Assembly (NCBI RefSeq): GCF_018131105.1
Contig: NZ_JAFCJI010000001.1
Span: 1,550,001-1,614,000 of the forward strand
Reading direction: 5' to 3'
DNA: 64,000 bases
Source: Bradyrhizobium manausense
GTDB lineage: Bacteria > Pseudomonadota > Alphaproteobacteria > Rhizobiales > Xanthobacteraceae
Positions 49,915 through 64,000 of this stretch are shown here, in pieces. The notes under the pieces are model-generated. The model did not search any database and was not told where the DNA came from. It worked only from the letters and a program-made list of their open reading frames with translations. The number at the start of each line of letters is the position of its first letter. Within the stretch, counting starts at the first letter, position 1. Both the position numbers and the translations under genes were made by a program.

Positions 49915-50222
49915 GGCACGTCGCGCTCCCAGGTCCGGTCGCCAAGCGCATCGCCCAGCACCTGCCGCGCTGCGGCAACGTTGGTCGGATGCAGTTCCGT
50001 GGCCTTGGCAAAGGCCTTCACGGTGTCGTCATCGCGCAGCACGAAATCGAGCACGCTGAGCAGGAAATTCGGGTCCGAGGCGGCGGTCCGGAGCGACCCC
50101 GGGCCGACTCCTGTCTCGGCGAGAAACAGGCCCAGCCGTTCAGGCTCGCCAGCCACGAAGGACAATGCCTGAATCGCAACGATTTCAGCGACTTCGCGAG
50201 GGTTGTGAACAGGCTTTTTCAC
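49911..50222 (-). CDS. DUF3572 family protein
   Basis: 103 residues from a GTG at 50222 (MKKPVHNPREVAEIVAIQALSF). Longer in-frame starts would run across the GANTC-rich promoter region. The pattern GEPERLGLFLAETGVGPGSLR and FLLSVLDFVLRDDDTVKAFAKATELHP is the DUF3572 family, small helical soluble proteins found in Alphaproteobacteria. It leads the dinB operon, overlapping dinB by 4 bases, so it may be linked to DNA repair. Function is unknown. Confidence 0.82.
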   Translation of the reverse strand: MKKPVHNPREVAEIVAIQALSFVAGEPERLGLFLAETGVGPGSLRTAASDPNFLLSVLDFVLRDDDTVKAFAKATELHPTNVAAARQVLGDALGDRTWERDVP

Positions 50223-50274
50223 GGGCCCGGTTTGCCTTTCCGTTAACTTTCGGTGTCTACTTTGGACTATGCCC

Positions 50275-50398
50275 GAGTCTTGAGACTGAGTCTCGGACGT
50301 GAGTCTCGCGGCCTCCGACAAGCAACTGGAAACCACATCGCAGAAAGTGGCCCCTCGGGTTTAACGAAACTCAAGCGAATCTGAAGCTAGTTTGAATC
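50275..50398. promoter_or_regulatory. Cluster of GANTC (CcrM) sites upstream of divK
   Basis: Five GANTC sites lie within 124 bases: GAGTC at 50275, 50288 and 50301, and GAATC at 50377 and 50394. The first three are set 13 bases apart and include the palindrome GAGAC-TGA-GTCTC (50282-50294). GANTC is the CcrM adenine-methylation target in Alphaproteobacteria; clustering in front of cell-cycle genes is a known way to tie expression to replication. A GTTAAC-type element lies at 50242-50247, a CtrA half-site-like core, but no second half is seen. Confidence 0.7.
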
Positions 50399-50473
50399 CA
50401 GTTTTCGAAGCGCCGGAAAGCGGCGCCTGAGTTGTCACATGCATCGGTCTTTGGGACCAAACAGGAGGGCGGG

Positions 50474-50839
50474 ATGGCTAAGACCGTCCTGATCGTGGAA
50501 GACAACGAGCTTAACATGAAGCTCTTCCGCGACCTGTTGGAGGCGCACGGCTACCAGACTTCCGGCACCAGCAATGGCTACGAGGCGCTCGACCTCGTTC
50601 GCAAGATGCGGCCCGACCTGGTGCTGATGGATATCCAGTTGCCGCAGGTCTCGGGGCTGGAGGTGACGCGCTGGATCAAGGACGATCCGGAGCTGCGCGC
50701 CATTCCCGTCGTCGCGGTCACGGCGTTCGCGATGAAGGGCGACGAAGAGCGCATCCGCGAGGGCGGTTGCGAAGCCTATTTGTCCAAGCCGATCTCGGTC
50801 GGCAAATTCATTGAGACGGTCCGGCGTTTTATCGGATAG
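50474..50839 (+). CDS. divK: Response regulator DivK
   Basis: 121 residues from ATG at 50474, with AGGAGGGCGGG upstream. Single receiver domain: VEDNELN at the acidic pocket, phospho-acceptor Asp53 in LMDIQLP, and YLSKP with the conserved Lys. In Caulobacter DivK is phosphorylated by DivJ, dephosphorylated by PleC and signals through DivL/CckA to control CtrA. The adjacent pleD and the shared promoter with GANTC sites support DivK over another single-domain receiver. Confidence 0.95.
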
Positions 50840-50853
50840 GAAGTGAGTTCAAA

Positions 50854-52227
50854 GTGTCCGCGCGTATCCTTGTCGTCGATGACGTCCCTGCCAACGTCAA
50901 ACTGCTAGAGGCCCGTCTCTCCGCCGAATATTTCGACGTGATGACCGCCTCGAACGGCACCGAGGCTCTGGCGCTGGCCCGCCGCGCCGAATGCGACATC
51001 ATCCTGCTCGACGTGATGATGCCCGACATGGACGGCTTCGAAGTCTGCCGCCGGCTGAAGACCGATCCGGCCACGCACCACATTCCCGTCGTGATGGTCA
51101 CCGCGCTCGACAGCCCCTCCGATCGCAACCGCGGCCTCGAAGCCGGCGCCGACGATTTCCTGACCAAGCCCGTGTCCGACGTCGTGCTGATCGCGCGCGT
51201 GCGCTCGCTGACCCGGCTCAAGATGATGACCGATGAGCTGCGCATGCGCGCCATCACCTCGCTCGAGATCGGAATGCAGGCGCCCGAGCGCACCGCCATC
51301 GCCGATGCCGGCAAGGGCGGCCGCATCCTGCTGGTCGACGACCGGCAGTCGTCCTATGAACGGCTGGCGACCATCCTCGCTGCCGAGCACACCATCGACG
51401 TCGAGCCCAATCCGACCGAAGCGCTGTTCCACGCGGCCGAAGGCAATTACGATCTCCTGATCGTCTCGCTCGATCTGAACAATTTCGACGGGCTGCGGCT
51501 GTGCAGCCAGGCCCGCTCGCTGGAGCGCACGCGCCACGTGCCGATCCTCGCGATCGCGGAAGCGGAAAACTCGACGCGGCTGCTCCGCGGCCTCGAGATC
51601 GGCGTCAACGACTATCTGCTCCGTCCGATCGACAAGACCGAGCTGCTGGCGCGCGCCCGCACGCAAATCCGCCGCCGCCGCTACACCGACCATCTGCGCG
51701 ACAACGTGCAGAATTCGATCGAGATGGCGATCACCGACGCACTCACCGGGCTGCACAATCGCCGCTACATGGAGAGCCATCTGGCAACGCTCGCCGAGCA
51801 GGCCTCCACCCGCGGCAAGCCGCTGGCGCTGATGATCCTCGACATCGACTATTTCAAGTCGATCAACGACAATTACGGCCACGACGCCGGTGACGACGTG
51901 CTGCGCGAATTTGCGGTGCGCGTACGCAAGTCGATTCGCGGCATCGATCTGGCCTGCCGCTACGGCGGCGAGGAGTTCGTCATCGTGATGCCGGAGACGG
52001 ATCTGCACGTTGCCGGCATGGTCGCCGAGCGGCTGCGCCGCTCGATCGCGGGCGAGCCGTTCGCCGTCCACAAGGGCACCAAGCGCATCGAGGTCACGAT
52101 CTCCATCGGGCTCACCACGCTCGAGCAGAAGGGCGAGGCGGTGGCCGACGTCCTCAAGCGCGCCGACACGGCGCTCTACCGCGCCAAGCACGACGGACGC
52201 AATCGCGTGGTGTCGCAGGCGGCGTGA
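50854..52227 (+). CDS. pleD: Response regulator diguanylate cyclase PleD
   Basis: 457 residues from GTG at 50854. Order: receiver 1 (Asp53 in LLDVMMPDMDG), a second degenerate receiver (150-275, VSLDLNNFDG in place of the usual acceptor), then a GGDEF domain with active-site GGEEF at 371-375 and an inhibitory I-site R362-x-x-D365. Active PleD makes cyclic di-GMP, and the I-site allows product inhibition. It follows divK by 14 bases. In Caulobacter PleD localises to the stalked pole and drives motility-to-sessile change. Confidence 0.96.
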   Translation: MSARILVVDDVPANVKLLEARLSAEYFDVMTASNGTEALALARRAECDIILLDVMMPDMDGFEVCRRLKTDPATHHIPVVMVTALDSPSDRNRGLEAGADDFLTKPVSDVVLIARVRSLTRLKMMTDELRMRAITSLEIGMQAPERTAIADAGKGGRILLVDDRQSSYERLATILAAEHTIDVEPNPTEALFHAAEGNYDLLIVSLDLNNFDGLRLCSQARSLERTRHVPILAIAEAENSTRLLRGLEIGVNDYLLRPIDKTELLARARTQIRRRRYTDHLRDNVQNSIEMAITDALTGLHNRRYMESHLATLAEQASTRGKPLALMILDIDYFKSINDNYGHDAGDDVLREFAVRVRKSIRGIDLACRYGGEEFVIVMPETDLHVAGMVAERLRRSIAGEPFAVHKGTKRIEVTISIGLTTLEQKGEAVADVLKRADTALYRAKHDGRNRVVSQAA

Positions 52228-52300
52228 GGCGGCTGCGGTAGCAGCACGATGGCGCCATCGCTTGTTGGCTGTTGGTGAGTGACAGCGCCTCATGTTCAGT

Positions 52301-52421
52301 GTCGTCCCGGCGGAGGCCGGGACCCATAACCCCAGGGAGGGGTTATGGAGCGAACTGGTAACTCCTAGTCTTCGCAAAACTGTTGCTGCGGCGTATGGGT
52401 CCCGGCCTTCGCCGGGACGAC
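52301..52421. repeat. Large palindromic repeat after pleD
   Basis: A 28-base arm (52301-52328, GTCGTCCCGGCGGAGGCCGG plus eight more bases) is inverted at 52394-52421 with a single mismatch. Between them CATAACCCC and GGGGTTATG make an inner hairpin. It separates convergent pleD and tetR and could terminate both. From memory the same GTCGTCCCGGCGAAGGCCGGGACCC arms are abundant in Bradyrhizobium. Confidence 0.88.
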
Positions 52422-52423
52422 AG

Positions 52424-53032
52424 TTATGATTGTGGCGAGCGCTTGCCCTTCACAAGCGCCGGCTTCGCATCATCCCCCACATCCACTCCCGCATTCCGCA
52501 GCAGCACCTTCGCCGCTTCCTTGGCGGCGCGCGCCATCGCGGGGTCATCACGGACGAGGTCCTGCGCGATCGAGCCGTCGACCAGCAGCACCAGCTGCGT
52601 TGCGAGCGCGTCCGCGCCCGCAACACCCAGCTCGGTCAGCCGTTCACGAAACCAGACGCGGCGGCTTTCCTTGAACGCGACCGCGATCTTTTTCACGGCG
52701 CGGTCGGAGGGGCCGAGCTCGGCGACCGCATTCACGAACGGGCAGCCGCGAAAATCCTTCGCCGCAAAACGCCGCTCCAGCGAATCGAAGGTGCCGAGAA
52801 TCTGCTCGGCCGGCGGTTTGTCGGAGGGGCGGGCGTGAACGAAGCGGCGCTCCAGATAGGCCGCGATCAGCGCGTCCTTGGAGGGAAAGTGGTTGTAGAG
52901 CGTTCGCTTTGAGATGCCGATCTCGGCTGCAATGGTGTCGACGCCGATGGCGCGAATGCCCTGCAGATAGAACAGCTTGTCGGCGGTCTCGAGGATCCGT
53001 TCCTTCATGTCGGATTTTTCGGCGGACGGCAT
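52424..53032 (-). CDS. TetR family transcriptional repressor
   Basis: 202 residues. The helix-turn-helix is ADKLFYLQGIRAIGVDTIAAEIGISKRTLYNHFPSKDAL (17-55). The C-terminal ligand domain is all-helical with FRGCPFVNAVAELG. The ATG at 53032 lies just below an ACACAG-AC-CTGTGT palindrome and has no clear ribosome site, so the transcript may be leaderless. Divergent from an MFS transporter gene, which it likely represses along with itself. Confidence 0.93.
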   Translation of the reverse strand: MPSAEKSDMKERILETADKLFYLQGIRAIGVDTIAAEIGISKRTLYNHFPSKDALIAAYLERRFVHARPSDKPPAEQILGTFDSLERRFAAKDFRGCPFVNAVAELGPSDRAVKKIAVAFKESRRVWFRERLTELGVAGADALATQLVLLVDGSIAQDLVRDDPAMARAAKEAAKVLLRNAGVDVGDDAKPALVKGKRSPQS

Positions 53033-53033
53033 A

Positions 53034-53103
53034 ACACAGACCTGTGTAACATGCGCCTTGACAGCGCTCGTTACCTATAGACTAATTACACAGGTCTGTG
53101 TAA
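53034..53103. promoter_or_regulatory. Twin TetR operators and the transporter promoter
   Basis: ACACAG-AC-CTGTGT at 53034-53047 abuts the tetR start codon. TTACACAG-GT-CTGTGTAA at 53086-53103 is a second, longer copy with eight-base arms. Between them TTGACA at 53058-53063, a 17-base spacer and ACTAAT at 53081-53086 make a plausible promoter for the transporter, so the second operator covers its start point. A dimer at each box would shut both genes. Confidence 0.85.
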
Positions 53104-53164
53104 CCAAAATCCGAACGAATTGCAGATGCCGGCGCGTGTGCCGCGCCCACAAGGGAGAAGAAAA

Positions 53165-54403
53165 ATGCCCCTGTTGCAGGTCCTGCGTCCGACATTGCCG
53201 ATCCTGATCGGCGCCTCGATCATGCTGACGCTGAGCATGGGGCTGCGGCAGTCGCTCGGCATCTTCATGCAGCCGCTGACGCATGACATTCACCTCTCGG
53301 TGTCGGACTTCACGCTGGCGCTTGCCGTGCAGAACCTCGCCTGGGGCTTTCTCCAGCCGCTGGCGGGCGCGATGACCGTGCGCTTCGGCTTTCGTCCCAT
53401 CATGGTCGCGGGCGCGCTGATGTACATCGCAGGCCTCGCCTTGATGGCGACCGCGAGCGGGCTCGTCAGCATCATGATCGGCGCGGGCGTGCTGATCGGC
53501 ACCTCGCTCGCCTGCACCGCAAACGCGATCGCGATGTCGGTGGCCACGCGCGCGGTGCCGGCAACGGTCCGCTCCACCGTGCTCGGCCTTGTCTCCGGCG
53601 CTGGTTCGCTCGGCGCGCTGCTGTCGGCGCCGATCGGCCAGATGCTCAACGAGGGTTTCGGCTGGCGCATCGGTCTTGCCGGCTTCGTTGTGATGTCGGT
53701 GCTGATGATCCCGGCCGCCTTGTACGCCGGCAGCGTCGACAAGATTCCGCTGCCGAAGCCGACACCTGATGACATCGGCGATGCCAGTGCGACGTCTGTT
53801 GCCAAGGCGGCGTTCGGCAACGCCTCTTTCGTGGTGATGACCTGCGCCTATCTCGTCTGCGGCATGCAGCTCGTCTTCCTCACCACGCATCTGCCGTCGT
53901 ATCTGGCGATCTGCGGCCTCGATCCGATGCTGAGCGCGCAGACGCTCGGCATGATCGGCGGCTTCAACGTGCTGGGCTCGCTGTTCTTCGGCTGGGCCGG
54001 CCAGCGCTGGAACAAGCTCGCGCTGCTGGGCGGCATCTACATCGTCCGTTCGATCGCGCTCGCCTGGTACTTCATGCTGCCGGCGACGCCGGCATCGACG
54101 CTGCTGTTCGGCGCCATCATGGGCTTCCTCTGGATGGGCGTCGGCCCGCTGGTCGCAGGTGCCGTCGCCGAGATGTTCGGCCTGCGCTGGCAGGCCATGA
54201 TCCAGGGCCTCGCCTTCATGAGCCACCAGCTCGGCAGCTTCCTCGGCGCGTACGGAGGAGGGGTGATCTACGACGCGCTCGGCTCCTACAGCATGGCCTG
54301 GCGCATCGGTGTGGCACTGGGCCTTGCCGGCGGCATCATCCAGGTTGCGTTCGCGTTGATCCGGCCGTCGCAGCCGCCGGCGCCGGTGTTGCGGACGGCG
54401 TAG
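53165..54403 (+). CDS. MFS transporter
   Basis: 412 residues from ATG at 53165 (GGGAGAAGAAAA upstream); starts at 53120 or earlier fall in or near the operator. Twelve hydrophobic helices, first one ILIGASIMLTLSMGLRQSLG. Motif A-like FGFRPIMVAGALMY lies between helices 2 and 3, and the family resembles the oxalate/formate antiporter or YbfB-like subgroup (QNLAWGFLQPLAG). Regulated by the divergent TetR. Substrate not identifiable. Confidence 0.9.
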   Translation: MPLLQVLRPTLPILIGASIMLTLSMGLRQSLGIFMQPLTHDIHLSVSDFTLALAVQNLAWGFLQPLAGAMTVRFGFRPIMVAGALMYIAGLALMATASGLVSIMIGAGVLIGTSLACTANAIAMSVATRAVPATVRSTVLGLVSGAGSLGALLSAPIGQMLNEGFGWRIGLAGFVVMSVLMIPAALYAGSVDKIPLPKPTPDDIGDASATSVAKAAFGNASFVVMTCAYLVCGMQLVFLTTHLPSYLAICGLDPMLSAQTLGMIGGFNVLGSLFFGWAGQRWNKLALLGGIYIVRSIALAWYFMLPATPASTLLFGAIMGFLWMGVGPLVAGAVAEMFGLRWQAMIQGLAFMSHQLGSFLGAYGGGVIYDALGSYSMAWRIGVALGLAGGIIQVAFALIRPSQPPAPVLRTA

Positions 54404-54695
54404 GCGGGCATGCCGAGGCAACGATGAGGCGTAGCCCTCGTCCTGACGCGGAGTGCTGCGTTTCCGACGCTTTCTCCGTACGGGAAAATCTGGCACAATC
54501 TGCATAGTTGCGCTGTCGTATGCGGACTAAGGTCCAGCGATGGGCAACGAGCTACTGGCACGCGGTTGCCGTTGCGGCGGGCGTTTTCACCGTGGCCGCC
54601 GGCTCCCTTCTTTTGTTTGTTTATTGACACGGTACGCGCCCAGGTTGGCGGCCTGCTTTCAAGGGAGCCGCTTTCGCAATGTCGTGCCGTTCCAG

Positions 54696-54709
54696 TTGAT
54701 CTGGGTCAA
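54696..54709 (+). promoter_or_regulatory. FixK/FNR-type box upstream of small secreted protein gene
   Basis: TTGAT-CTGG-GTCAA matches the FixK2 consensus TTG-N8-CAA with a perfect TTGA-N6-TCAA core. It lies in the 388-base gap 54404-54791, 83 bases upstream of the ATG at 54792. If it acts as a class II site the transcript would start near 54744. FixK2 drives low-oxygen expression in Bradyrhizobium. No other feature is supported in the gap; frames crossing it lack ribosome sites. Confidence 0.6.
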
Positions 54710-54791
54710 CATCATCCCTTTCGTGCCGCGCACACTAGGTTCGACCGCAGCGTCGCAGCTTGTTTCAGTTCGCGAGTTTGAGGAGGATTGC

Positions 54792-55055
54792 ATGCGTCGA
54801 GCGAAGCGTCTTTCGATCAGGTCGACGACCGTCACCGGAATTATAGCCAGCGCTCTGTTCGGGCTCGCGGGGGTCACTCTTGGTCCGGCCCCCGCTCACG
54901 CGGTGATCTACTGCACCTATGTTGGCTATCCCGCAGGCTGTGTCGCGCGGGCCGGTGTCGTGCTCAGACCTCGACCCGTGGCACGAGCCGCCGTTCGTCA
55001 CAACGCCGGTGGCAACTTGAACGGCGGCGTCAATCGCGTCGGGGCGCGACGCTGA
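54792..55055 (+). CDS. Small secreted protein behind a FixK-type box
   Basis: 87 residues from ATG at 54792, with GAGGAGG five bases upstream; a longer in-frame start at 54540 covers the putative promoter and is unlikely. A signal peptide (TTVTGIIASALFGLAGVTL, about 12-30) ends near AHA-V. The mature part of about 45 residues has two cysteines (VIYCTYVGYPAGCVAR) and a basic C-terminus rich in Arg and Asn. No family is recognised; it looks like a small exported protein, possibly induced at low oxygen. Confidence 0.65.
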   Translation: MRRAKRLSIRSTTVTGIIASALFGLAGVTLGPAPAHAVIYCTYVGYPAGCVARAGVVLRPRPVARAAVRHNAGGNLNGGVNRVGARR

Positions 55056-55129
55056 TGCCATCCTGCTGCTCACGCGCGGAGCATTTTCACGCAAGGCAGT
55101 TGTGCGACCCGTTGAATTTTGAGCAATCG

Positions 55130-55396
55130 ATGAGGCACACTTGGTACGTAACTTTCGAGGTGCCGCGTCGCGGGATTTTGCCGAAGGCAAGGCATCCTCG
55201 ACTGACCAGAACCTTTGAAACAGAGGCGGACGCCAAGCTCTTCGCAAAAGAGAAACTTGAGCAAGGATTGGTCGTGACAGCCGGCACTCTCAATCCGCAC
55301 GTACCCAGGCAAGTTATTCCGTCCAGCGCCATGGCGATCTGGCTTGGGAACGAGCGGGATGAAAGCGCGGAACGGGTTGACGATCTGGATCACTAG
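55130..55396 (+). CDS. Hypothetical small protein
   Basis: 88 residues from ATG at 55130. It reads WYVTFEVPRRGILPKARHPRLTRTFETEADAKLFAKEKLEQGLVVTAGTLNPH, a beta-alpha-beta arrangement, with an acidic C-terminal tail. It resembles small soluble proteins common in rhizobia; no motif is known to me. The base composition is lower in G+C than the window average. It ends overlapping a convergent short gene by 4 bases. Confidence 0.6.
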   Translation: MRHTWYVTFEVPRRGILPKARHPRLTRTFETEADAKLFAKEKLEQGLVVTAGTLNPHVPRQVIPSSAMAIWLGNERDESAERVDDLDH

Positions 55397-55575
55397 GCTG
55401 AAAGACGTGGACCTTCCTCCATAGCGCTCTCCACATCGCTAGCCAGTTGGGTCAGGTGATCCGCTAGTTTGGCAAAGAACTCGCGCTTCGTCGCGTCGGT
55501 AGATAAATCACGGATCAATGCGCATTCGATGGCCTCGATCCGCAACGCTTCAAGTTGTTCGCTCAACGCTCGCAT
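55393..55575 (-). CDS. Hypothetical short helical protein
   Basis: 60 residues: LSEQLEALRIEAIECALIRDLSTDATKREFFAKLADHLTQLASDVESAME. It is predicted to be two amphipathic helices with heptad-like leucines, typical of a coiled-coil or partner-binding peptide. No signal peptide. Its frame is well supported by codon pattern but the start has no strong ribosome site. It is in the lower G+C stretch and its stop overlaps the convergent gene at 55396. The gap to 55858 holds nothing clear. Confidence 0.5.
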   Translation of the reverse strand: MRALSEQLEALRIEAIECALIRDLSTDATKREFFAKLADHLTQLASDVESAMEEGPRLSA

Positions 55576-55858
55576 CGTTGTGCCCCATGCTTGCAGAACA
55601 GCATCACGCGCCAGTCATTTCACAATCGGTCGCGCGGCCAACTCAAACAATTGTCCTTTGGGGAATTTGCCTCTTTGGCAATGATTCATTCATGCGCATC
55701 CTGGACTGTGCGGGTCGCATGCGCTCCGATTTTCAACACCACATACAACCGAGCCACTCACGGGTTTATTTTCAGAAGCGTTGATCTGAATCAGCGCAGC
55801 CACATCGTCACGGACTAGGCGTCTGCCGTTAGTTCTCTTTTACGAAAGGAGAAAGTCC

Positions 55859-56353
55859 ATGACGTACGTAAGTAAGACTGCCCTAGCTTCTTGCGCATTT
55901 GTGTGTGCGACACTGTTCTCCATCGGGAGCTTAGAGCAAGGCACTCTATCGCTTTCAGTTGAGAGCGCTCAGGCTCGGGTCGGCAATCCGCTGACCCCAG
56001 TGAGTGTTGCGGGTGTTGCCCGTCGTCATCATCGGCGCGCAGCGTACGGATACGGGTATGGTGCAGGCGTCGCAGGTGCCGCCGCAGTCGGCACGGTTGC
56101 CGCCGTCGGCACGGCTGCTGCCGTCGCCGCTTCCCCCAATTGGGGATGGGGCAGCAACACCTGGACCAACTCTTACGCGGCCCAGACTGATCCTCACTTT
56201 GGGCAGCCGCTCTACGCTCACCGGGCCTACTACGGACATAGCCCTTACTATGGCTACACCGGTTGGGATGACTATTCGACTCGCAACAGCCTCAAGTGCC
56301 ACCCAGGAGGCACGATCAAGCTCGACGACGGCCATATGTACTCCTGCCAATAG
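55859..56353 (+). CDS. Secreted hypothetical protein, Gly/Ala/Tyr-rich
   Basis: 164 residues from ATG at 55859, preceded by AAAGGAGAAAG. A signal peptide runs to about residue 25-40. The middle is Gly/Ala/Val-rich (GYGYGAGVAGAAAVGTVAAVGTAAAVAAS), followed by an aromatic segment (YYGHSPYYGYTGWDDY) and one C-terminal Cys pair (LKCHPGGTIKLDDGHMYSCQ). The layout fits a periplasmic or surface-exposed low-complexity protein. No enzyme motif. A strong terminator follows. Confidence 0.72.
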   Translation: MTYVSKTALASCAFVCATLFSIGSLEQGTLSLSVESAQARVGNPLTPVSVAGVARRHHRRAAYGYGYGAGVAGAAAVGTVAAVGTAAAVAASPNWGWGSNTWTNSYAAQTDPHFGQPLYAHRAYYGHSPYYGYTGWDDYSTRNSLKCHPGGTIKLDDGHMYSCQ

Positions 56354-56395
56354 AACTCCCAATAGGCAAAGTACGAGTAGTCGATCCCGTCGATG

Positions 56396-56437
56396 GCGCG
56401 CGGCCCTCGGGTAATGCCGGGGCCGCGTGGTTTTTTT
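56396..56437 (+). terminator. Rho-independent terminator
   Basis: CGCGGCCC..CGG at 56398-56410 pairs with CCGG..GGCCGCG across a GTAATG loop with one bulge. Seven T residues follow from 56431. It ends the transcript of the secreted Gly/Tyr-rich protein gene. Confidence 0.85.
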
Positions 56438-56482
56438 GGGCGAACAGTTCCGCAAGCCGAGTGGAGGTCTCGCTCGTCAAAC

Positions 56483-56498
56483 TGTGATATAGATCACA
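56483..56498 (+). promoter_or_regulatory. CRP/FNR-type site upstream of caspase-like gene
   Basis: TGTGA-TATAGA-TCACA is a perfect copy of the CRP consensus TGTGA-N6-TCACA. It sits 83 bases before the ATG at 56581. Several rhizobial CRP-like regulators (for example Clr of Sinorhizobium) recognise TGT-N10-ACA, which this also satisfies. Whether the host regulator is cAMP- or cGMP-dependent cannot be told. Confidence 0.6.
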
Positions 56499-56580
56499 TA
56501 AATTGCGCGACTTCTTGCGCATTGTGATCGCCAGACTCAATGTTAGGGTCGGTTTTTATTGGCGATTTGGGACTCTGGGG

Positions 56581-58440
56581 ATGCGTTTCCTGCTCGGCCT
56601 ATTCGTGTCGGTCTGGCTTATTTTGCCGACAGGGCCTGCGCTGGCGGATAAGCGCGTGGCCCTCGTCATCGGCAATTCGACTTACCGCAACGTCGCCAAG
56701 CTCGGTAATCCCGTCAACGACGCGGCCGCCGTTGCGGCCATGTTCAAAGCCGCCGGATTCAGTTCGGTCGAGTCCAAGCTCAACCTGACCATCAGCGAAA
56801 TGCGCAAATCCTTGCGCGACTTCGGCAATGCCAGCCGCGATGCGGATGTCGCGGTCGTCTATTATGCGGGGCACGGGATCGAGCTGGACGGCACCAATTA
56901 TCTGATCCCGATCGACGCCACGCTCGAGACCGATACCGACGTTCTGGATGAGACGCTGTCGCTGGATCGCGTGCTGGTCGCGGTTGAATCGGCCAAGCAG
57001 TTGCGGCTGATCATCCTCGACGCCTGCCGCGACAATCCCTTTGCGAAGAACATGAAGCGGACGATGGCCTCGCGCGCGGTCGGTCGCGGTCTCGCCAAGG
57101 TCGAGCCCACGAGCCCGAATACGGTGATCGCGTTTGCTGCTAAGGCCGGATCGACCGCATCCGACGGCACCGGAAAGAACAGCCCGTTTGCAACGGCGCT
57201 GGTGGAGCATCTCGCCAAACCGGGCCTCGATCTGCAAAGGGCATTTCGCTATGTCCGCGATGACGTTCTGAAGGCGACCAACAACACGCAGGAGCCGTAC
57301 ACCTATACGTCGCTTGGCGGTGACGACGTTCCCCTTGTCGCCGCCGGCCCGGTCAAGCCTGTGGTTGCGTCACCTGCCGCCGCAGCTCCGGCTGACCAGA
57401 GCGCGACGATGCGGCGCGACTACGAGTTCGCCTTGCAGGTCGGCACAAAGCCGGCGTGGGACGCTTTCATCGAACAATATCCGACCGGATTCTTTACCTC
57501 GCTTGCGAAGGCCCAGCGCGACAAGCTGGCGGCCGAAGCGGCACAGGTCGAAGCCACCAACAAGGCCAAGGCCGCTCGCGACGAGCAGGCGCGGCTGGCT
57601 GCGGAGGGCGCCAAAGCTTCGGAGCAGGCCAAGGCCGCCGAACAGGCGAAAGCCGCCGAACGCGCACGCGTCACGGCGGAAGCGGCCAAGAAGGCCGAGG
57701 AGGCCAAGCTCGCCGAAGCCGAACGTGTCAAGGCGGCCGAAGCCGCCAAGGCGGAAGCCAAGGAGGCTGAACGCATCAAGGCGGCGGAAGCGGCCAATGT
57801 CACGCGAGAGGCAAAGCTGGTCGCGGATCAAAAGACCAGGGACGACAAGCAGGTGATCGAGCAAAAGTCGAAGGAGGACAAGCTGGCCGCGTTGACGCCT
57901 TCTGCCGACAAACCGGATGTTCCGGCTGCGGCGGATCTTCCGCGCGCGCTCCAGGCCGAACTTCGACGGGTCGGCTGCAACACCGGTGCGGTCGACGGCA
58001 TCTGGAATGCAGCCGCGCAGCGATCGCTCGATCTCTTCAACAAGCACGCCGGTATGAAATTGGATGTCAGGACGGCCAGCGCCGACGCGCTCGATGCCGT
58101 CAAGGGCAAGACCACACGCGTCTGTCCGCTGGCTTGCGATCACGGGTTCAGGGCCGATGGCGACCGCTGCACGAAGATTACGTGCCGCGCCGGATACGAA
58201 GTCGGCGACGACAATACGTGCGAAAAAATCGAGGTGAAGAAGCCGGTGGCCAAGCGCGACGATCAGAAGCGCGAGTCATCTGAACGGGCCAAAACGGAAG
58301 CTTCACCGGCTAAGCCGCAGGCTTCGGGCCAGATGTATTGCGGAGCGGCCGGATGCCGCCCCGTGGCGAAAGGGTGCCGGCTGGATACCGCAGCCCGCAA
58401 CGGCAACATCGTGACGTCGCCGCGCGAGATCTGCGATTGA
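56581..58440 (+). CDS. Caspase-like (C14) secreted protein
   Basis: 619 residues from ATG at 56581; an in-frame TTG at 56503 would add 26 residues but the signal peptide begins at 56581. Signal peptide ends near Ala22. Caspase-like domain 24-260 with the dyad His98 in YYAGHGIE and Cys149 in LDACRDNPF; the DACR motif fits orthocaspases/metacaspase-like proteins cutting after basic residues. Residues 320-450 are charged Ala/Lys/Glu repeats (coiled coil likely). The last 130 residues resemble a peptidoglycan-binding module (AVDGIWNAAAQRSLDLF) then a Cys-rich end (CRAGYEVGDDNTCEK). Exported, wall-linked protease of unknown target. Confidence 0.88.
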   Translation: MRFLLGLFVSVWLILPTGPALADKRVALVIGNSTYRNVAKLGNPVNDAAAVAAMFKAAGFSSVESKLNLTISEMRKSLRDFGNASRDADVAVVYYAGHGIELDGTNYLIPIDATLETDTDVLDETLSLDRVLVAVESAKQLRLIILDACRDNPFAKNMKRTMASRAVGRGLAKVEPTSPNTVIAFAAKAGSTASDGTGKNSPFATALVEHLAKPGLDLQRAFRYVRDDVLKATNNTQEPYTYTSLGGDDVPLVAAGPVKPVVASPAAAAPADQSATMRRDYEFALQVGTKPAWDAFIEQYPTGFFTSLAKAQRDKLAAEAAQVEATNKAKAARDEQARLAAEGAKASEQAKAAEQAKAAERARVTAEAAKKAEEAKLAEAERVKAAEAAKAEAKEAERIKAAEAANVTREAKLVADQKTRDDKQVIEQKSKEDKLAALTPSADKPDVPAAADLPRALQAELRRVGCNTGAVDGIWNAAAQRSLDLFNKHAGMKLDVRTASADALDAVKGKTTRVCPLACDHGFRADGDRCTKITCRAGYEVGDDNTCEKIEVKKPVAKRDDQKRESSERAKTEASPAKPQASGQMYCGAAGCRPVAKGCRLDTAARNGNIVTSPREICD

Positions 58441-58538
58441 GCGGCTGCGAATGCATTGGAAGCGTGATGGTGGCTGGCGACGTCATGCCGATGTTGGCGA
58501 CGTAGCCTGACGATTGCTGCGTGCCGCCGCGATCGCAC

Positions 58539-58799
58539 CTATCGCGGACGCGGGCCGCGATCCGGATGAGGCGGCTGCTGCTGCACATAAGGGTTCTGCA
58601 GGCACATGGCGGAAAGGCCCGCAGCGCTGGCTTTGCACTCTTCCCAGGTACTGTACTGGCACCGGATTGAGCTGGCACCGCCCCATTCCCACTTTTGCAG
58701 GCACACGGGAGCATTGCCGCCGAACCGCTGGGCTGCGGCCGGAGCGGGCGCCGACATGATGATCCCGACGATGAAGAGAAGGGGAAGCGCGCGCATCAT
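58539..58799 (-). CDS. DUF3551-like secreted cysteine-rich protein
   Basis: 86 residues from ATG at 58799; the frame stays open further upstream but without a signal peptide. Signal peptide MMRALPLLFIVGIIMSAPAP ends near Ala22-Ala25. The mature part has the DUF3551 layout, CLQKWEW..SIRCQYSTWEECKASAAGLSAMCLQNP, with four cysteines. DUF3551 is a family of small Bradyrhizobium-enriched exported proteins of unknown function. It follows a same-strand paralogue 2 bases away and forms a pair with it. Confidence 0.75.
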   Translation of the reverse strand: MMRALPLLFIVGIIMSAPAPAAAQRFGGNAPVCLQKWEWGGASSIRCQYSTWEECKASAAGLSAMCLQNPYVQQQPPHPDRGPRPR

Positions 58800-58801
58800 G
58801 A

Positions 58802-59032
58802 TCAACGCCCCCGCTGCGGAGCCAGTTGTTTGAACCTCACGCGCGGGTTCACATCGCAATAGGTGTTCCAACGTCCCGATGCTGACGCCAGGCACTGTTC
58901 TCGCGTCGAATACATGCATTCGCCGGGCGCGCCGAGCCCTCCGCCAAAGACGCACCACGGATAGTCACGTTCAGCATGTGCTGCGGGAGAAAACCCGATG
59001 ACCATGAAGACAATCAGTATGGCGATGCGCAT
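58802..59032 (-). CDS. DUF3551-like secreted protein, paralogue
   Basis: 76 residues from ATG at 59032, chosen because GGAG stands six bases before it; ATG at 59047 is the alternative. Signal peptide RIAILIVFMVIGFSPAAHAE ends near Ala21. The mature protein, WCVFGGGLGAPGECMYSTREQCLASASGRWNTYCDVNP, has four cysteines in the spacing of its neighbour. The two genes are separated by 2 bases on the minus strand, so they are co-transcribed. The pair suggests tandem duplication. Confidence 0.75.
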   Translation of the reverse strand: MRIAILIVFMVIGFSPAAHAERDYPWCVFGGGLGAPGECMYSTREQCLASASGRWNTYCDVNPRVRFKQLAPQRGR

Positions 59033-59254
59033 GCGATTCTCCATCACGTCAGCCGAACGGCGCCGGAAGCGCTGAGCGTTTGCAACATAGCCGGTCGCTG
59101 ATCACGGCTCAAGAATAGTTCCCTTCACGGCAAGCACAAAACCCCGTGTTGCGCGCCATCGTTCGCGTCGAACTGCGACAGCTTGTCATCGGTCTTTAGG
59201 AACGTCCGCGTGCAGCCTTCGGTTGACGAGCACACCATCAAACGGAGTTGAACT

Positions 59255-59545
59255 ATGCGGAAGACAATTTTCTCGGTGGCCATGTGCGCGTTGCTGGCCG
59301 GTGCGTCGATCGGTTTTGCTCACGCGCAGACGGGCGGCGCCGGTGCCGGCGGAGCGGGCGCAGGTGCCGGTGCTGGCGCTGGCGGCGCTGGTGTGGGAGG
59401 AGCCGGCGCGGCGGGCAGCGGAGCCAGCAGCGGCACGACCGGCATGGGCGGTGGTAGCAACGCAAGTTCCGGCACCAACAGCGGCCAAGGCGGCCCCCAG
59501 ACAAGTCATCCGGGCCGGAGGAGCCAGGATCCCACGGGTCGCTGA
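59255..59545 (+). CDS. Gly/Ala-rich exported low-complexity protein
   Basis: 96 residues. Signal peptide KTIFSVAMCALLAGASIGFAHAQ ends at about residue 24. The mature chain is almost wholly Gly/Ala/Ser (GAGAGGAGAGAGAGAGGAGVGG) and ends SHPGRRSQDPTGR. It could be a structural or loose matrix protein of the envelope. Codon use looks translated and an ATG with CGGAG upstream is present. Real gene likely, function unknown. Confidence 0.62.
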   Translation: MRKTIFSVAMCALLAGASIGFAHAQTGGAGAGGAGAGAGAGAGGAGVGGAGAAGSGASSGTTGMGGGSNASSGTNSGQGGPQTSHPGRRSQDPTGR

Positions 59546-59576
59546 TGTCTCGCTTGAGACTGAGAAGAACGAGGAG

Positions 59577-59615
59577 GTCTGGATTGCTTCGTCGCTAGAG
59601 CTCCTCGCAATGACG
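59577..59615. repeat. Second copy of the TCTGGATTGCTTCG repeat
   Basis: GTCTGGATTGCTTCG at 59577-59591 and CTCGCAATGACG at 59604-59615 are the same modules as at 43412-43443. The first arm of the palindrome is missing or degraded here, so this is a half copy. It lies between the Gly-rich gene and the rpmG terminator. Confidence 0.7.
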
Positions 59616-59645
59616 GCGTGAAGCGAGAGGGGGCTCAAACGAAAA

Positions 59646-59665
59646 CGGGGCCCGCAAGGGCCCCG
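59646..59665 (-). terminator. Rho-independent terminator of rpmG
   Basis: CGGGGCCC (59646-59653) pairs with GGGCCCCG (59658-59665) with a GCAA loop. On the minus strand it is followed by TTTTC and further T residues. It lies 28 bases downstream of the rpmG stop. Confidence 0.85.
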
Positions 59666-59693
59666 CAAAACTCTTCAACGCTTTTCGCCGATC

Positions 59694-59861
59694 TTACTTG
59701 ATCTTGGCTTCCTTGAACTCGACGTGCTTGCGCGCGACCGGGTCGTACTTCTTCTTGACCAGCTTGTCGGTCATGGTGCGCGAATTCTTCTTGGCGACGT
59801 AGTAGAAGCCGGTGTCGGCCGAGGACACGAGCTTGACCTTGATGGTGACCGCTTTGGCCAT
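59694..59861 (-). CDS. rpmG: 50S ribosomal protein L33
   Basis: 55 residues, below the usual size cut-off so easily missed. It reads [20 protein letters not shown], then [20 protein letters not shown], ending [15 protein letters not shown]. This is the cysteine-free form of L33, which does not bind zinc. Basic and lysine-rich as expected for a large-subunit protein near the E site. Ends in a strong terminator. It lies downstream of the flavin monooxygenase gene on the same strand with about 125 bases between, so it likely has its own promoter. Confidence 0.96.
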
Positions 59862-59985
59862 GTTCTGAACCTCAGAAATGAAGGGAATCTGGAGCCGGCC
59901 AAGCGGCCCGCGTTGGCCGGCAACCTAGCCAGAAACCGCCTGATGTCAAGGTTTTAGGGCTAGAAAACCACTCAAATCGGCCCGA

Positions 59986-61311
59986 TCAGGCCTCGAAGAA
60001 CCGGTTTTTCGGCCGGGGAAGGCCCAGATTCTCCCTCAAGGTGGCCCCTTCATACTCTTTCCGGAAAATCCCGCGCCGCTGCAGCTCGGGGACGACCTTG
60101 TCGACGAAATCGTCGAGGCCGGCCGGCAGGAACGGGAACATGATGTTGAAGCCGTCGGAGCCGCGCCCGACCAGCCATTCCTCCATCTGGTCGGCGATGG
60201 TCTTGGCCGTGCCGATGAAGGACAGCCCGCCGTAACCGCCGACGCGCTGGGCGAGCTGGCGCACGGTGAGCTTGTCGCGCCTGGCGAGATCGACCATGCG
60301 CTGCCGCCCGCTCTTGCTGGCGTTGGTCTCCGGGATCTCGGGCAGCTGTCCGTCCGGATCGAAGCCCGAAGCATCGGTGCCGAGGACCACCGAGAGCGAG
60401 GCGATGGCGCTCTCGTAATGCACGCGACTGTCGAGCAAGGCGCGCTTTTCCTTGGCCTCATCGACGCTGTCGCCGACCACGACGAAGGCGCCGGGAAGAA
60501 TCTTGAGGTGCTCGGGATCGCGACCGATCTTCTCCATGCGGCCCTTGATGTCGGCATAGAGTTTTTGTCCGTCGGCGAGGCTGCCACCGCCGGTGAAAAC
60601 GGCTTCCGCGGTCTCTGCCGCGAGCTGCCTGCCGTCTTCGGAGGCCCCGGCCTGCACGATCAGCGGCCAGCCCTGCACCGGGCGGGCGATGTTGAGGGGA
60701 CCGCGCACCTTCAAATATTTGCCGACGTGGTCGAGCACATGCATCTTCGAGGGATCGACGAACACGCCGCTTTCGACATCGCGCACGAAGGCGTCGTCGG
60801 CGAAGGAATCCCAGAGGCCGGTGACGACGTCGTAGAACTCGCGGGCGCGCTTGTATCGCTCGGCATGCTCCATGTGGTCGTCGAGGCCGAAATTCAGCGC
60901 CGCGTCCGGGTTCGAGGTGGTGACGATGTTCCACCCCGCACGCCCGCCGCTGAGATGGTCGAGCGAGGCGAAGCGGCGCGCGACGTGATAGGGCTCGTCG
61001 AACGTGGTCGATCCGGTCGCGATCAGGCCGATGCGCTCGGTGACGGCCGACAGCGCCGACAGCAGCGTAAACGGTTCGAACGAGGTCACGGTGTGACTGC
61101 GCTTGAGCGCATTGACGGGCATATTCAGCACGGCGAGGTGATCGGCCATGAAGAAGGCGTCGAACTTGCCGGCCTCGAGCTTCTGGATCAGCTGCTTGAT
61201 GTGGCCAAAGTTGAAGTTGGCGTCGGGCCAGGCCCCGGGATAGCGCCAGGCGCCGGTGTGGATGCTGATCGGGCGCATGAACGCGCCAAGCTTGAGTTGC
61301 CGTTGTGCCAT
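59986..61311 (-). CDS. LLM-class FMN-dependent monooxygenase (NtaA/SnaA/DszA-like)
   Basis: 441 residues from ATG at 61311. Signatures: LGAFMRPISIHTGAWRYPGAWPDANFNF, FFMADHLAVLNMP, IATGSTTFDEPYHVARRFASLDHLSGGRAGWNIVTTSNPDAALNFG and VQGWPLIVQAGASEDGR, all typical of the NtaA/DszA/SnaA group of flavin monooxygenases, which use FMNH2 from a partner reductase to oxidise sulfonates, nitrilotriacetate or sulfones. No flavin reductase or transporter gene lies beside it, so the substrate is open. Confidence 0.92.
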   Translation of the reverse strand: MAQRQLKLGAFMRPISIHTGAWRYPGAWPDANFNFGHIKQLIQKLEAGKFDAFFMADHLAVLNMPVNALKRSHTVTSFEPFTLLSALSAVTERIGLIATGSTTFDEPYHVARRFASLDHLSGGRAGWNIVTTSNPDAALNFGLDDHMEHAERYKRAREFYDVVTGLWDSFADDAFVRDVESGVFVDPSKMHVLDHVGKYLKVRGPLNIARPVQGWPLIVQAGASEDGRQLAAETAEAVFTGGGSLADGQKLYADIKGRMEKIGRDPEHLKILPGAFVVVGDSVDEAKEKRALLDSRVHYESAIASLSVVLGTDASGFDPDGQLPEIPETNASKSGRQRMVDLARRDKLTVRQLAQRVGGYGGLSFIGTAKTIADQMEEWLVGRGSDGFNIMFPFLPAGLDDFVDKVVPELQRRGIFRKEYEGATLRENLGLPRPKNRFFEA

Positions 61312-61515
61312 CGCGCCCAAAATCCCGTTCTGGTGTCGTTGCAGAAAGACATAGGGACGCCGGGGAACTCCGCCATTGGGGGAGGCGGGAAGAATTTTTT
61401 GTTTTTCGCCGTCTGGTCAGCACAATCCCGTCGATGATGGAGGAGGGGCGCCAATCGAACCAACCTGCCGTTCATGGCGACCAAGCCATGACCTTCGCTT
61501 CCGAGGAGATCTTCA

Positions 61516-62067
61516 GTGGCACGCGCAATGACGGTGGATGGCAACCTCATCCGCTTCGACTGGCCTGGGCAATGGATTGCGCGGGTGCTGTCGGTGCCGT
61601 TTCTCGCCGCCGGCGGCTATCTCCTATGGAACGTTGCGCTCGGCATGCGCAATGATTTTGCCGGCTTCGGCCGCCTGAGCGACGATCTGGTCCCGATCCT
61701 GGTGTTCTCCGGCATCGGCCTCGCGACGCTGATTCCAGGGCTCTATCTGGCGACCTATCGCTATTTCATCGAGCTCGACAAATCGCTGGCCGAAATCGTC
61801 GTGACGCGCGCATTCGGTCCGCTCAAGTTCAGAAGCCCGCGCCAGCTCGCCGACTTCCATTTCATCAGCATTACCGACCGTGGCGGCACCGACGAAGACG
61901 AGGCGACGCTGTTCCACGTCAATCTCTGCGGCAACAGGGGCACCGAGGCGATTGCGCTCTCGAGCTTCTCCAGCCGCGACGAGGCCAATGCGTTCGCCCG
62001 CGACCTCGGCCGCGCGCTCAAACTGCCGGCGCGCGATTATGTCGGCACCGAGCCGGACGCGGACTGA
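61516..62067 (+). CDS. Hypothetical membrane protein
   Basis: 183 residues from GTG at 61516, with GAGGAG seven bases upstream; an internal ATG at 61528 is the alternative. Two hydrophobic helices (about 24-44 and 59-81) are followed by a soluble C-terminal domain with strands LAEIVVTRAFGPLKFRSPRQLADFHFISITDRG. The layout, helix hairpin and then a small soluble domain, is like several DUF-type membrane proteins; I do not recognise a named family. Confidence 0.7.
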   Translation: MARAMTVDGNLIRFDWPGQWIARVLSVPFLAAGGYLLWNVALGMRNDFAGFGRLSDDLVPILVFSGIGLATLIPGLYLATYRYFIELDKSLAEIVVTRAFGPLKFRSPRQLADFHFISITDRGGTDEDEATLFHVNLCGNRGTEAIALSSFSSRDEANAFARDLGRALKLPARDYVGTEPDAD

Positions 62068-62817
62068 TCAGCCCAGCATATCCTTCTGCATCTTGCCGCC
62101 GTAGAAATGGAAGAACGGCACCGGTGCGTCGTGGCGCAGCGGACCGGTGGCAAGACGCGTGTGAAGCTCGTTGAGCACATTCCGTGTCATGGGATGCAGA
62201 TCTGCGAGCGGCTTTGAGCCGAGCTCGACCCAGACCAGCTCGACCAGCTCCGCATCGGCATGGATCACGCCTTCGACGTGATGGGTGATCGCGGAGGCAT
62301 CCGCCGTAAAGAAGCGGGTGTCGAACCGCTTGACGCGGCCGGGCGGGGTGATCGCGCGCGCGATCAGGAAAAGGCTGGACGGATCGGGCAGCAGGCCCGC
62401 ATCTGCGAACGGCTTCCAGGCACCTTCGAGCTTGGCTTTGCCCTCGCTCTTGCGGCCGAGGCAAAGACCGGTCTCCTCGCAGGCCTCGCGGATCGCGGCA
62501 ATCGCCAGCGATTTGGCGCGCGAGGCCGGCGTCTTCGGGCTGCCCTTGGCGAGATTGGCCTCCAGCTCCGCAGTCATGGGCGCCGCGACCGGCACGCGAT
62601 AATCGTCCTTGTCGACGCGGCCGCCGGGGAAGACGAATTTGCCGGGCATGAACACCACCTTGTCGTGGCGCTTGCCGACCAGCACCTTCGGAATGGCGCC
62701 GCTGCGATCGACCAGGATCAGGGTCGCCGCATCCCGTGGACGAAAATAGGGATGGTGGTCGGCTTCCTTTTCCTCGTGAACCCTGGCCTTTTCGGCCGTC
62801 TGCGCGGTATCGCTCAT
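62068..62817 (-). CDS. NUDIX hydrolase, NUDT19-like with interrupted Nudix box
   Basis: 249 residues. The fold opens with PRDAATLILVDRSG and FVFPGGRVD (62-69). The box element REACEETG is at 110-117, about 45 residues after the GG of the box; canonical Nudix boxes span 23 residues, so this one carries an insert, as in mammalian NUDT19-type enzymes that act on coenzyme A derivatives. Catalytic Glu114-Glu115 are present. It is the last gene of the rnr-DUF983-NUDIX group on the minus strand. Substrate unknown; CoA-type diphosphates possible. Confidence 0.85.
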   Translation of the reverse strand: MSDTAQTAEKARVHEEKEADHHPYFRPRDAATLILVDRSGAIPKVLVGKRHDKVVFMPGKFVFPGGRVDKDDYRVPVAAPMTAELEANLAKGSPKTPASRAKSLAIAAIREACEETGLCLGRKSEGKAKLEGAWKPFADAGLLPDPSSLFLIARAITPPGRVKRFDTRFFTADASAITHHVEGVIHADAELVELVWVELGSKPLADLHPMTRNVLNELHTRLATGPLRHDAPVPFFHFYGGKMQKDMLG

Positions 62818-62849
62818 ATCCTCACCCGAACCGTTCTTGCTTATTTTGC

Positions 62850-63281
62850 TTACACAGGCGGAATACCATCCGGCGGGTTCTCGTCAAACCCGTGCATGCG
62901 CAGAGCCCATTGCAAGCCGACCACAGCTCCCTTCACCGGCTGCAGCAGCCCGAGGGACGCAAAGAAGGTGAAGGGCAGGTAGGCGGCGAAAGTGAGCCAC
63001 GCGGGCGTCGTGTAGTTGGTCTCGATCCAGAGGATGGCCGGCACGGTGATGTGGCCGACGATGACGATCACGAGATAGGCGGGCAGATCGTCGGCGCGAT
63101 GCGGCGTGAAGTCGAGGCCGCAGGACGAGCAATTGTCCGCCGTCTTCAGGAAGGCGCGGAACAGCTTGCCTTGGCCGCAGCGCGGGCAGCGGCTGCGAAA
63201 GCCGCGCTTCATGGCCGCCCAGACGTCGCGTTTCTCGACGAGGCCGGTCTCGCGGGTCCAGATCTTGGGGGCCGTGCTCAT
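62850..63281 (-). CDS. DUF983 family membrane protein
   Basis: 143 residues from ATG at 63281 (an ATG at 63290 would overlap the rnr end). Two CxxC pairs, RCPRCGQGKLF and CSSCGLDF, form a zinc-ribbon of about 25 residues, followed by two hydrophobic helices (LVIVIVGHITVPAILWI and LPFTFFASLGLLQP). DUF983 proteins are small membrane proteins of unknown role in Alphaproteobacteria. The gene starts 2 bases after the rnr stop, so it is co-transcribed. Confidence 0.88.
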   Translation of the reverse strand: MSTAPKIWTRETGLVEKRDVWAAMKRGFRSRCPRCGQGKLFRAFLKTADNCSSCGLDFTPHRADDLPAYLVIVIVGHITVPAILWIETNYTTPAWLTFAAYLPFTFFASLGLLQPVKGAVVGLQWALRMHGFDENPPDGIPPV

Positions 63282-63283
63282 GG

Positions 63284-64000
63284 TCACCATGCCTTGCCCT
63301 TCTTGCCTTTGTTCTTGCCTTTGCCCTTCTTCGGCTTGCCGGACTTCGGCTTCGGTGGCTTGCGTTTTCTATCCGGGCTGCGGCCGGGATGCGCCTTGAG
63401 CGAAGGACGGCGTTGCGGGCCCGCTTGCCGGCGGTCGCGCGGGGCGGTTGTGCTATCCGACGACAGCAGCTCGAAACGCAGCGCGCCTGCGATAGGAGCT
63501 GCTTCGATCAGACGGACGTCAACCACGTCGCCGAGCTGGTACATGGTGCGGCTGCGCGTGCCGACGAGGGCATGGCGGCCCTCGTCATAGTTGAAATATT
63601 CCGTGCCGAGGGATCGGATCGGGATCAATCCGTCGGCGCCAGTTTCAGCTAGTTTGACAAAGAGCCCGGCACGGGTGACGCCGGAGACGCGGCCCTGGAA
63701 ACTCGAGCCGATGCGGTCGGCGAGGTGATGCGCGATCAGGCGGTCGACGGTCTCGCGTTCCGCTTTCATCGCACGCCGCTCTGTCAGCGAAATGTGCGCG
63801 GCGACTTCGGCGAGGGTTTCCGCCGTCTCGCTGTCGGGCAGGGCGCCTTCGCCAAGCCCAAGTGCGCGGACCAGGGCTCGGTGCACGACGAGGTCGGCAT
63901 AACGGCGGATCGGCGAGGTGAAATGCGCGTAGCGGCGCAGATTCAGGCCGAAATGCCCGTAGTTCTCCGACGAATATTCGGCCTGCGCCTGGGCGCGCAG
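63284..64000 (-). CDS. rnr: Ribonuclease R, C-terminal part
   Basis: The frame is open from the window edge (64000) to the stop at 63284, so the N-terminus is outside. Visible: the end of the RNB catalytic domain (SENYGHFGLNLRRYAHFTSPIRRYADLVVHRAL), the S1 RNA-binding domain (GSSFQGRVSGVTRAGLFVKLAETGADGLIPIRSL) and a long lysine-rich tail ending KKGKGKNKGKKGKAW. RNase R is a 3'-5' exonuclease able to degrade structured RNA; the basic tail helps hold duplex RNA. First gene of the DUF983/NUDIX group. Confidence 0.94.
   Translation of the reverse strand: MRAQAQAEYSSENYGHFGLNLRRYAHFTSPIRRYADLVVHRALVRALGLGEGALPDSETAETLAEVAAHISLTERRAMKAERETVDRLIAHHLADRIGSSFQGRVSGVTRAGLFVKLAETGADGLIPIRSLGTEYFNYDEGRHALVGTRSRTMYQLGDVVDVRLIEAAPIAGALRFELLSSDSTTAPRDRRQAGPQRRPSLKAHPGRSPDRKRKPPKPKSGKPKKGKGKNKGKKGKAW

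Follow-up and report, generated by a model that had tools for sequence, protein, structure and literature searches.

The window analysed here, 64,000 nucleotides of the Bradyrhizobium manausense contig NZ_JAFCJI010000001.1, holds a gene for a caspase-like protein behind a palindrome of the CRP type. The list of open reading frames (ORFs) also gives a longer, TTG-started form of this gene, from 56503, and we took the ATG at 56581 as the start because homologues begin at about its position. In window coordinates, the features of the locus are as follows.

56483 to 56498, no strand assigned: CRP-type palindrome TGTGATATAGATCACA, an exact match whose first base lies 98 bp upstream of the ATG
56499 to 56580, plus strand: leader, with stretches conserved in an alignment of five orthologues; inspection by eye gave no convincing -35/-10 elements
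56581 to 58440 (stop included), plus strand: caspase-like (Peptidase_C14) gene, 619 amino acids; Pfam PF00656 at E=1.6e-39, homologue starts in agreement
56581 to 56646, plus strand: residues 1-22, predicted signal peptide; the N terminus is hydrophobic, and A20 and A22 do not vary across 20 aligned sequences
56650 to 57312, plus strand: caspase domain, residues 24-244, from the Pfam match and the MALT1 fold match
56872 to 56874 and 57025 to 57027, plus strand: codons of His98 and Cys149, the dyad kept in 65 of 68 aligned rows
57490 to 57831, plus strand: long charged helix, coiled-coil-like, residues 304-417, from the AlphaFold model
57928 to 58110, plus strand: peptidoglycan-binding-like segment, residues 450-510; PG_binding_1 matches in relatives, window copy below the cut-off, SltB3 fold match
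58123 to 58434, plus strand: Cys-rich end, residues 515-618, with nine Cys, from a residue reading of the translation

The Pfam match to Peptidase_C14 (PF00656) spans residues 24-244 and model positions 1-227 of 233, scoring 136.5 bits against a cut-off of 21.4 (E=1.6e-39). An AlphaFold model of the full protein (17-row alignment, mean pLDDT 73.7, pTM 0.42) found its best fold match in the MALT1 paracaspase (Foldseek E 6e-15; Z 25.5, rmsd 3.3 over 218 residues). The complete His-Cys dyad that the first-pass annotation had read from the sequence is present under the same numbering, with H98 in the motif YYAGHG (94-99) and C149 in DACRDN (147-152). That annotation had let its proposal stand or fall with conservation of these two residues in homologues, and 65 of 68 aligned rows, among which the window protein counts twice, have both. 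The three exceptions (L007, L009 and L010, all from the window genome) have Tyr or Phe with Ser or Ala, substitutions known from Rhizobiales pseudo-orthocaspases as described in sections of PMC6426788. Two acids, D47 and D147, do not vary among 20 sequences that include the window's, and they align with two acids of MALT1. The latter, D365 and D462, presumably line its Arg-binding S1 pocket, and this alignment suggests that the window protein would most likely cleave after Arg or Lys.

Two of the features expected of an orthocaspase, a p20-type Peptidase_C14 domain and the His-Cys dyad, are found; orthocaspases are further defined by the absence of a p10 domain, set in PMC6426788 as a p10 HMM score under 30 bits. 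Despite the MALT1 best fold, Pfam at E<=1 picked up no Ig-like domain of the paracaspase kind, and an assignment to the EACC1-type caspases was rejected at 55.1 bits for NCBIfam NF047832, under its cut-off of 140. Signal peptides cut at an AXA motif carry its alanines at positions -3 and -1, here A20 and A22; because the N terminus is hydrophobic and both alanines are invariant, export of the caspase-like protein is likely, and the exported protein proposed earlier stands as a prediction.

C-terminal to the caspase domain, the charged coiled-coil region of the first reading reappears as helix 304-417 of the AlphaFold model, and its Cys-rich end is borne out by nine Cys (C515, 519, 530, 535, 547, 587, 592, 599 and 618), of which C515, C519, C530, C535 and C547 do not vary across an alignment of 17 sequences. 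This end is probably disulfide-stabilised; an EGF-like or antistasin identity was dropped, as the Pfam matches fell under the cut-off. The peptidoglycan-binding-like segment fared less evenly. PG_binding_1 (PF01471) matches 11 of 15 subfamily members at E<=1 (the window's included; best 8.8e-05) and the fold rows are of wall type, but the window copy, at 14.1 bits, does not reach the Pfam gathering cut-off of 23. When the C-terminal part was modelled alone (15 rows, mean pLDDT 72.3, pTM 0.46), Foldseek returned zero matches at E<=0.001 (best E 0.36, with unrelated proteins lower in the list), and a C-terminal profile matched nothing at E<=1 among PDB sequences. A second fold comparison gave 17 rows made up of wall enzymes, peptidoglycan-binding proteins and the protease CtpB, SleB and L,D-transpeptidases among them. 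Its top row was an SltB3 domain (Z 8.7, rmsd 2.2 over 60 residues, a modest Z for a small helical domain), and just two of the 17 rows, both SltB3, reached Z 8. From these models, segment 450-510 leans towards a peptidoglycan-binding domain, and wall binding of the caspase-like protein is uncertain.

The perfect CRP-type site reported by the first-pass annotation was confirmed: TGTGATATAGATCACA at 56483-56498 is exact, and it is conserved upstream of homologues, as expected of a member of a CRP regulon. The exact pattern TGTGANNNNNNTCACA occurs once in the window, where shuffling gives an expectation of 0.03 (it turned up in 3 of 100 shuffled versions). Tolerating up to 2 mismatches removes any excess (1 found against 1.10 expected; 9 against 15.4), and the case for the box therefore rests on its exactness and its conservation. 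TGTGA-N6-TCACA with at most 1 mismatch is found in 39 of 71 distinct 200-bp stretches upstream of homologues, 13 of them exact, and 89 control palindromes (permuted half-sites, gaps 5-7) had a mean of 0.22 and a maximum of 3 in the same 71 stretches; the homologous sequences are interrelated, so that these counts are not independent events. Among the 39 boxes the N6 takes 33 different forms, and 38 boxes have their first base 73-99 bp ahead of the called start, the remaining one at 194 bp; half-sites and position are thus kept and the spacer changes, except between close relatives, which have it in common. Such conservation points to selection on the box.

Of the 41 lead genes with the Cys-rich end, 34 are preceded by the core GTGA-N6-TCAC; so are 1 of the 5 genes that lie downstream in tandem arrays and 3 of the 17 remaining caspase homologues (lead genes vs remaining homologues, Fisher p 4.8e-6, an optimistic value since the sequences are related). 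A lead gene is here one not known as a downstream array member, by a tandem list made by hand, and the 68 rows became 63 once four that run off the edge of a locus were dropped, together with a truncated second entry for the window protein. The seven core-less lead genes (L050, L056, L057, L058, L034, L038 and L039) include all three labelled Afipia (L056-L058). The G060 orthologue differs in the outermost base on either side and reads CGTGA-N6-TCACG. Where caspase genes form arrays, the sole box with at most 1 mismatch precedes the first gene in five of them (L130-L134, 2-3 genes each); the contig ends within the first gene of a sixth array, L129, whose remaining two genes have no box, and L055 is an exception in that its second gene is preceded by a box too.

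The window genome (G000, 6.87 Mb) has 18 PF00656 matches, two of which are pieces of one split gene. A box with at most 1 mismatch stands before all four of its genes that fit the Cys pattern (L006, L008, L013 and the window gene) and upstream of a split caspase copy on contig C3. This last paralogue, at G000:C3:98416-99076 (L017, L018), carries the box CGTGATTGATGTCACA and is divided between two open frames, perhaps because the copy is decaying or because of an error in the assembly.

The caspase gene is flanked by an MFS-transporter-like and a monooxygenase-like gene (named by eye), both conserved in the genus. The spacer between these anchors, window 54404-59985, varies from 155 bp to 36.5 kb in the 44 genomes that, among the matches listed, have the two anchors on a single contig, and is shorter than the caspase gene in 12 of them; an orthologue at the same place, with 88% protein identity, is present in genome G060, among the matches listed. 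A 90% orthologue of the window protein comes from the same genus (G011:C18:58322-60178). DNA similarity between the window and the 90% orthologue L049 runs from 56478, five bases before the box, to 58440, and about 5 kb on each side of L049 shares nothing with window 50001-64000; in L021 and L051 the similarity starts at 56483, the first base of the box. Given these similarity limits at box and stop, the unshared flanks of L049 and the variable anchor spacer, caspase gene and box are accessory and seem to behave as a unit, and window 54404-59985 is likely a hotspot for small accessory genes. No mobile-element gene was seen among six nearby ORFs put to Pfam. Downstream of the caspase gene, two adjoining DUF3551 proteins are encoded at window 58539-59047 on the minus strand, and the G060 match spans them too. 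A 76% orthologue (L050) is carried by a 3.4 kb contig labelled Armatimonadetes (JACDEQ010000291.1), which is probably misplaced in its metagenome bin.

Genome-wide, exact TGTGAN6TCACA is found 20 times in the window genome and the reversed control pattern 0 times; all 40 of 40 genus genomes have 11-27 exact sites each, vs 0-3 for the reversed pattern. Three of the 20 sites lie near caspase genes. The others flank mixed genes and some are apparently inside ORFs, which makes regulon composition a weak functional hint; a function read from the 20 own-genome sites was accordingly given up, the mixed neighbours being too weak a basis for naming a pathway. At a Guanylate_cyc-domain ORF (L083, G000:C2:645952-647967, site at 1001), TGTGAN6TCACA lies 61 bp from the called start, and ORF and site are kept in two other genomes, an arrangement that would fit feedback on cyclic nucleotides.

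As to candidate regulators, HTH_Crp_2 has 25 matches in the window genome, 18 above the cut-off. We read 16 ORFs, one of which (L105) looks unrelated, and found a recognition helix of the form RE-x3-K/R in L095 and L101 only among the 15 CRP-family ORFs; the main CRP cluster has RE(T/M)VGR, as given in an excerpt of PMC10127613. FixK/FNR-type proteins were set aside as regulators of the box, as they lack the RE helix. In the PDB, L101 is closest to a putative cAMP-binding catabolite gene activator, and L095 finds its best match in the CRP/FNR-family regulator 3d0s (E=4.5e-41), which we take to be the CRP of M. tuberculosis. The ChIP motif of M. tuberculosis CRP resembles the E. coli pattern TGTGAN6TCACA, according to a passage of PMC4117774.

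Starting from the caspase fold, the conserved dyad, the export-type N terminus and the conserved box, we put the probability at roughly 0.5 that the locus encodes an exported, wall-associated envelope protease of the orthocaspase type, activated by cAMP-CRP. The product would be an exported single-chain protease, most likely cutting after Arg or Lys, and would be retained near peptidoglycan by the PG_binding_1-like segment on its long helical stalk. A CRP homologue that binds cAMP would act at the conserved palindrome to switch on its transcription, together with that of other genes bearing such a site, and envelope proteins would be trimmed or turned over as cyclic AMP rises; what this reading proposes is enzymatic activity, wall binding, which regulator acts, in which direction it acts, and what the substrates are. 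More speculatively, and in our estimate doubtful, wall-tethered caspase-type proteases may form a set that is found throughout Bradyrhizobium, duplicates readily and spreads as box-plus-gene units under cAMP-CRP. The cell envelope would then have a proteolytic layer under the control of cyclic AMP, of which we found no description in any bacterium.

With the same protein and a different signal, the box could be bound by another CRP/FNR-family regulator that is not cAMP-dependent, or be used for repression. The 25 HTH_Crp_2 matches (18 above the cut-off) offer many candidates, and a caspase paralogue on contig C5 has the end of one of them, L093, about 0.75 kb upstream of its box; however, L093 lacks the RE motif, which of the 15 CRP-family ORFs read marks L095 and L101 alone, and TGTGA is the half-site of E. 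coli CRP (in the relevant part of PMC4117774), so we consider such a regulator unlikely, though worth keeping in mind. Large and variable paralogue sets, tandem arrays and the accessory location would also suit a secreted effector or competition factor directed against the plant host or rival bacteria, its array diversification reflecting an arms race. The wall-binding-like segment argues instead for a protein that stays in the envelope of its producer, and we hold the effector reading to be distinctly improbable.

Caspase-like proteases occur in defence systems, and the first-pass annotation had considered that the protein might defend against phage or drive lysis. A generic PADLOC caspase model does match it (E=4.5e-11), but when the protein and 10 neighbours were compared with PADLOC, no known system model with partner genes nearby emerged, and two response-regulator-like proteins were the sole neighbours to give hits. 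The gene sits between transporter-like and monooxygenase-like genes and its product has an export-type N terminus, and a role as executor of phage defence or programmed lysis is accordingly very improbable. We give as little credence, or slightly less, to a non-proteolytic protein that retained its dyad by descent: pseudo-orthocaspases are common in Rhizobiales (from sections of PMC6426788) and three caspase homologues of the window genome have no dyad, yet dyad and both acids are invariant in the 17 and 20 aligned sequences.

Among solved structures, the closest fold to the window protein is that of the MALT1 paracaspase (Z 25.5), an animal signalling protein, from which it differs in having no Ig-domain match. 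With orthocaspases (MEROPS C14B; e.g. MaOC1) it shares the p20-type Peptidase_C14 domain, the His-Cys dyad and the presence of extra C-terminal domains, and it adds the export-type N terminus, a PG_binding-like and Cys-rich tail, and the CRP-type box. Characterised non-caspase members prefer basic P1 residues, as stated in parts of PMC5756287 and PMC6426788. A secreted Bradyrhizobium caspase, A5ECX2, described in 2012 (PMC3355149), likewise combines a signal peptide with PF00656, and its C terminus was proposed to bind peptidoglycan; by its description in portions of that paper, it is set apart by tandem YARHG domains and has no PG_binding_1-like or Cys-rich end. Eleven prokaryotic metacaspases in which a caspase domain is joined to a putative peptidoglycan-binding domain (excerpts of PMC3501461) are alike by description, and the available text on them contains neither 'promoter' nor 'CRP'. 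The earlier claim that export distinguishes the protein from metacaspases was thus overstated, since secreted and peptidoglycan-binding homologues were published in 2012, as far as the accessible sections of PMC3501461 and PMC3355149 go.

The protein class and its export are therefore already known, and what this analysis adds is the subfamily with its conserved box. In the open-licence literature we found no report of bacterial caspase homologues under CRP control. The one paper found to contain both 'metacaspase' and 'cAMP receptor protein' deals with UV-A in cyanobacteria (PMC3546692), a table in an NnrR paper lists the 'caspase family protein' bll3611 with a box of a different type (PMC6710368), and PMC11996625, in its available part, merely cites a paper on host caspase-1. 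Rhizobia are rich in caspase homologues (PMC3501461, in excerpt) whose roles are largely open, and a conserved site helps to work out when one subfamily is produced, as it points to possible inducing conditions (cAMP, carbon state), regulators and candidate co-regulated genes. If the envelope-protease reading is right, the question shifts from programmed cell death to envelope proteolysis.

CRP-type sites were also seen at other loci. A gene for an L,D-transpeptidase (YkuD) has one 264 bp upstream of its called start (L085, G000:C4:155877-157892). At another locus (L088, G000:C8:43905-45920), a single site is shared by two divergent genes, that of the caspase homologue L009, which lacks the dyad, and one of the metallo-beta-lactamase fold; the 16-mer of this site recurs in at least 2 other genomes.
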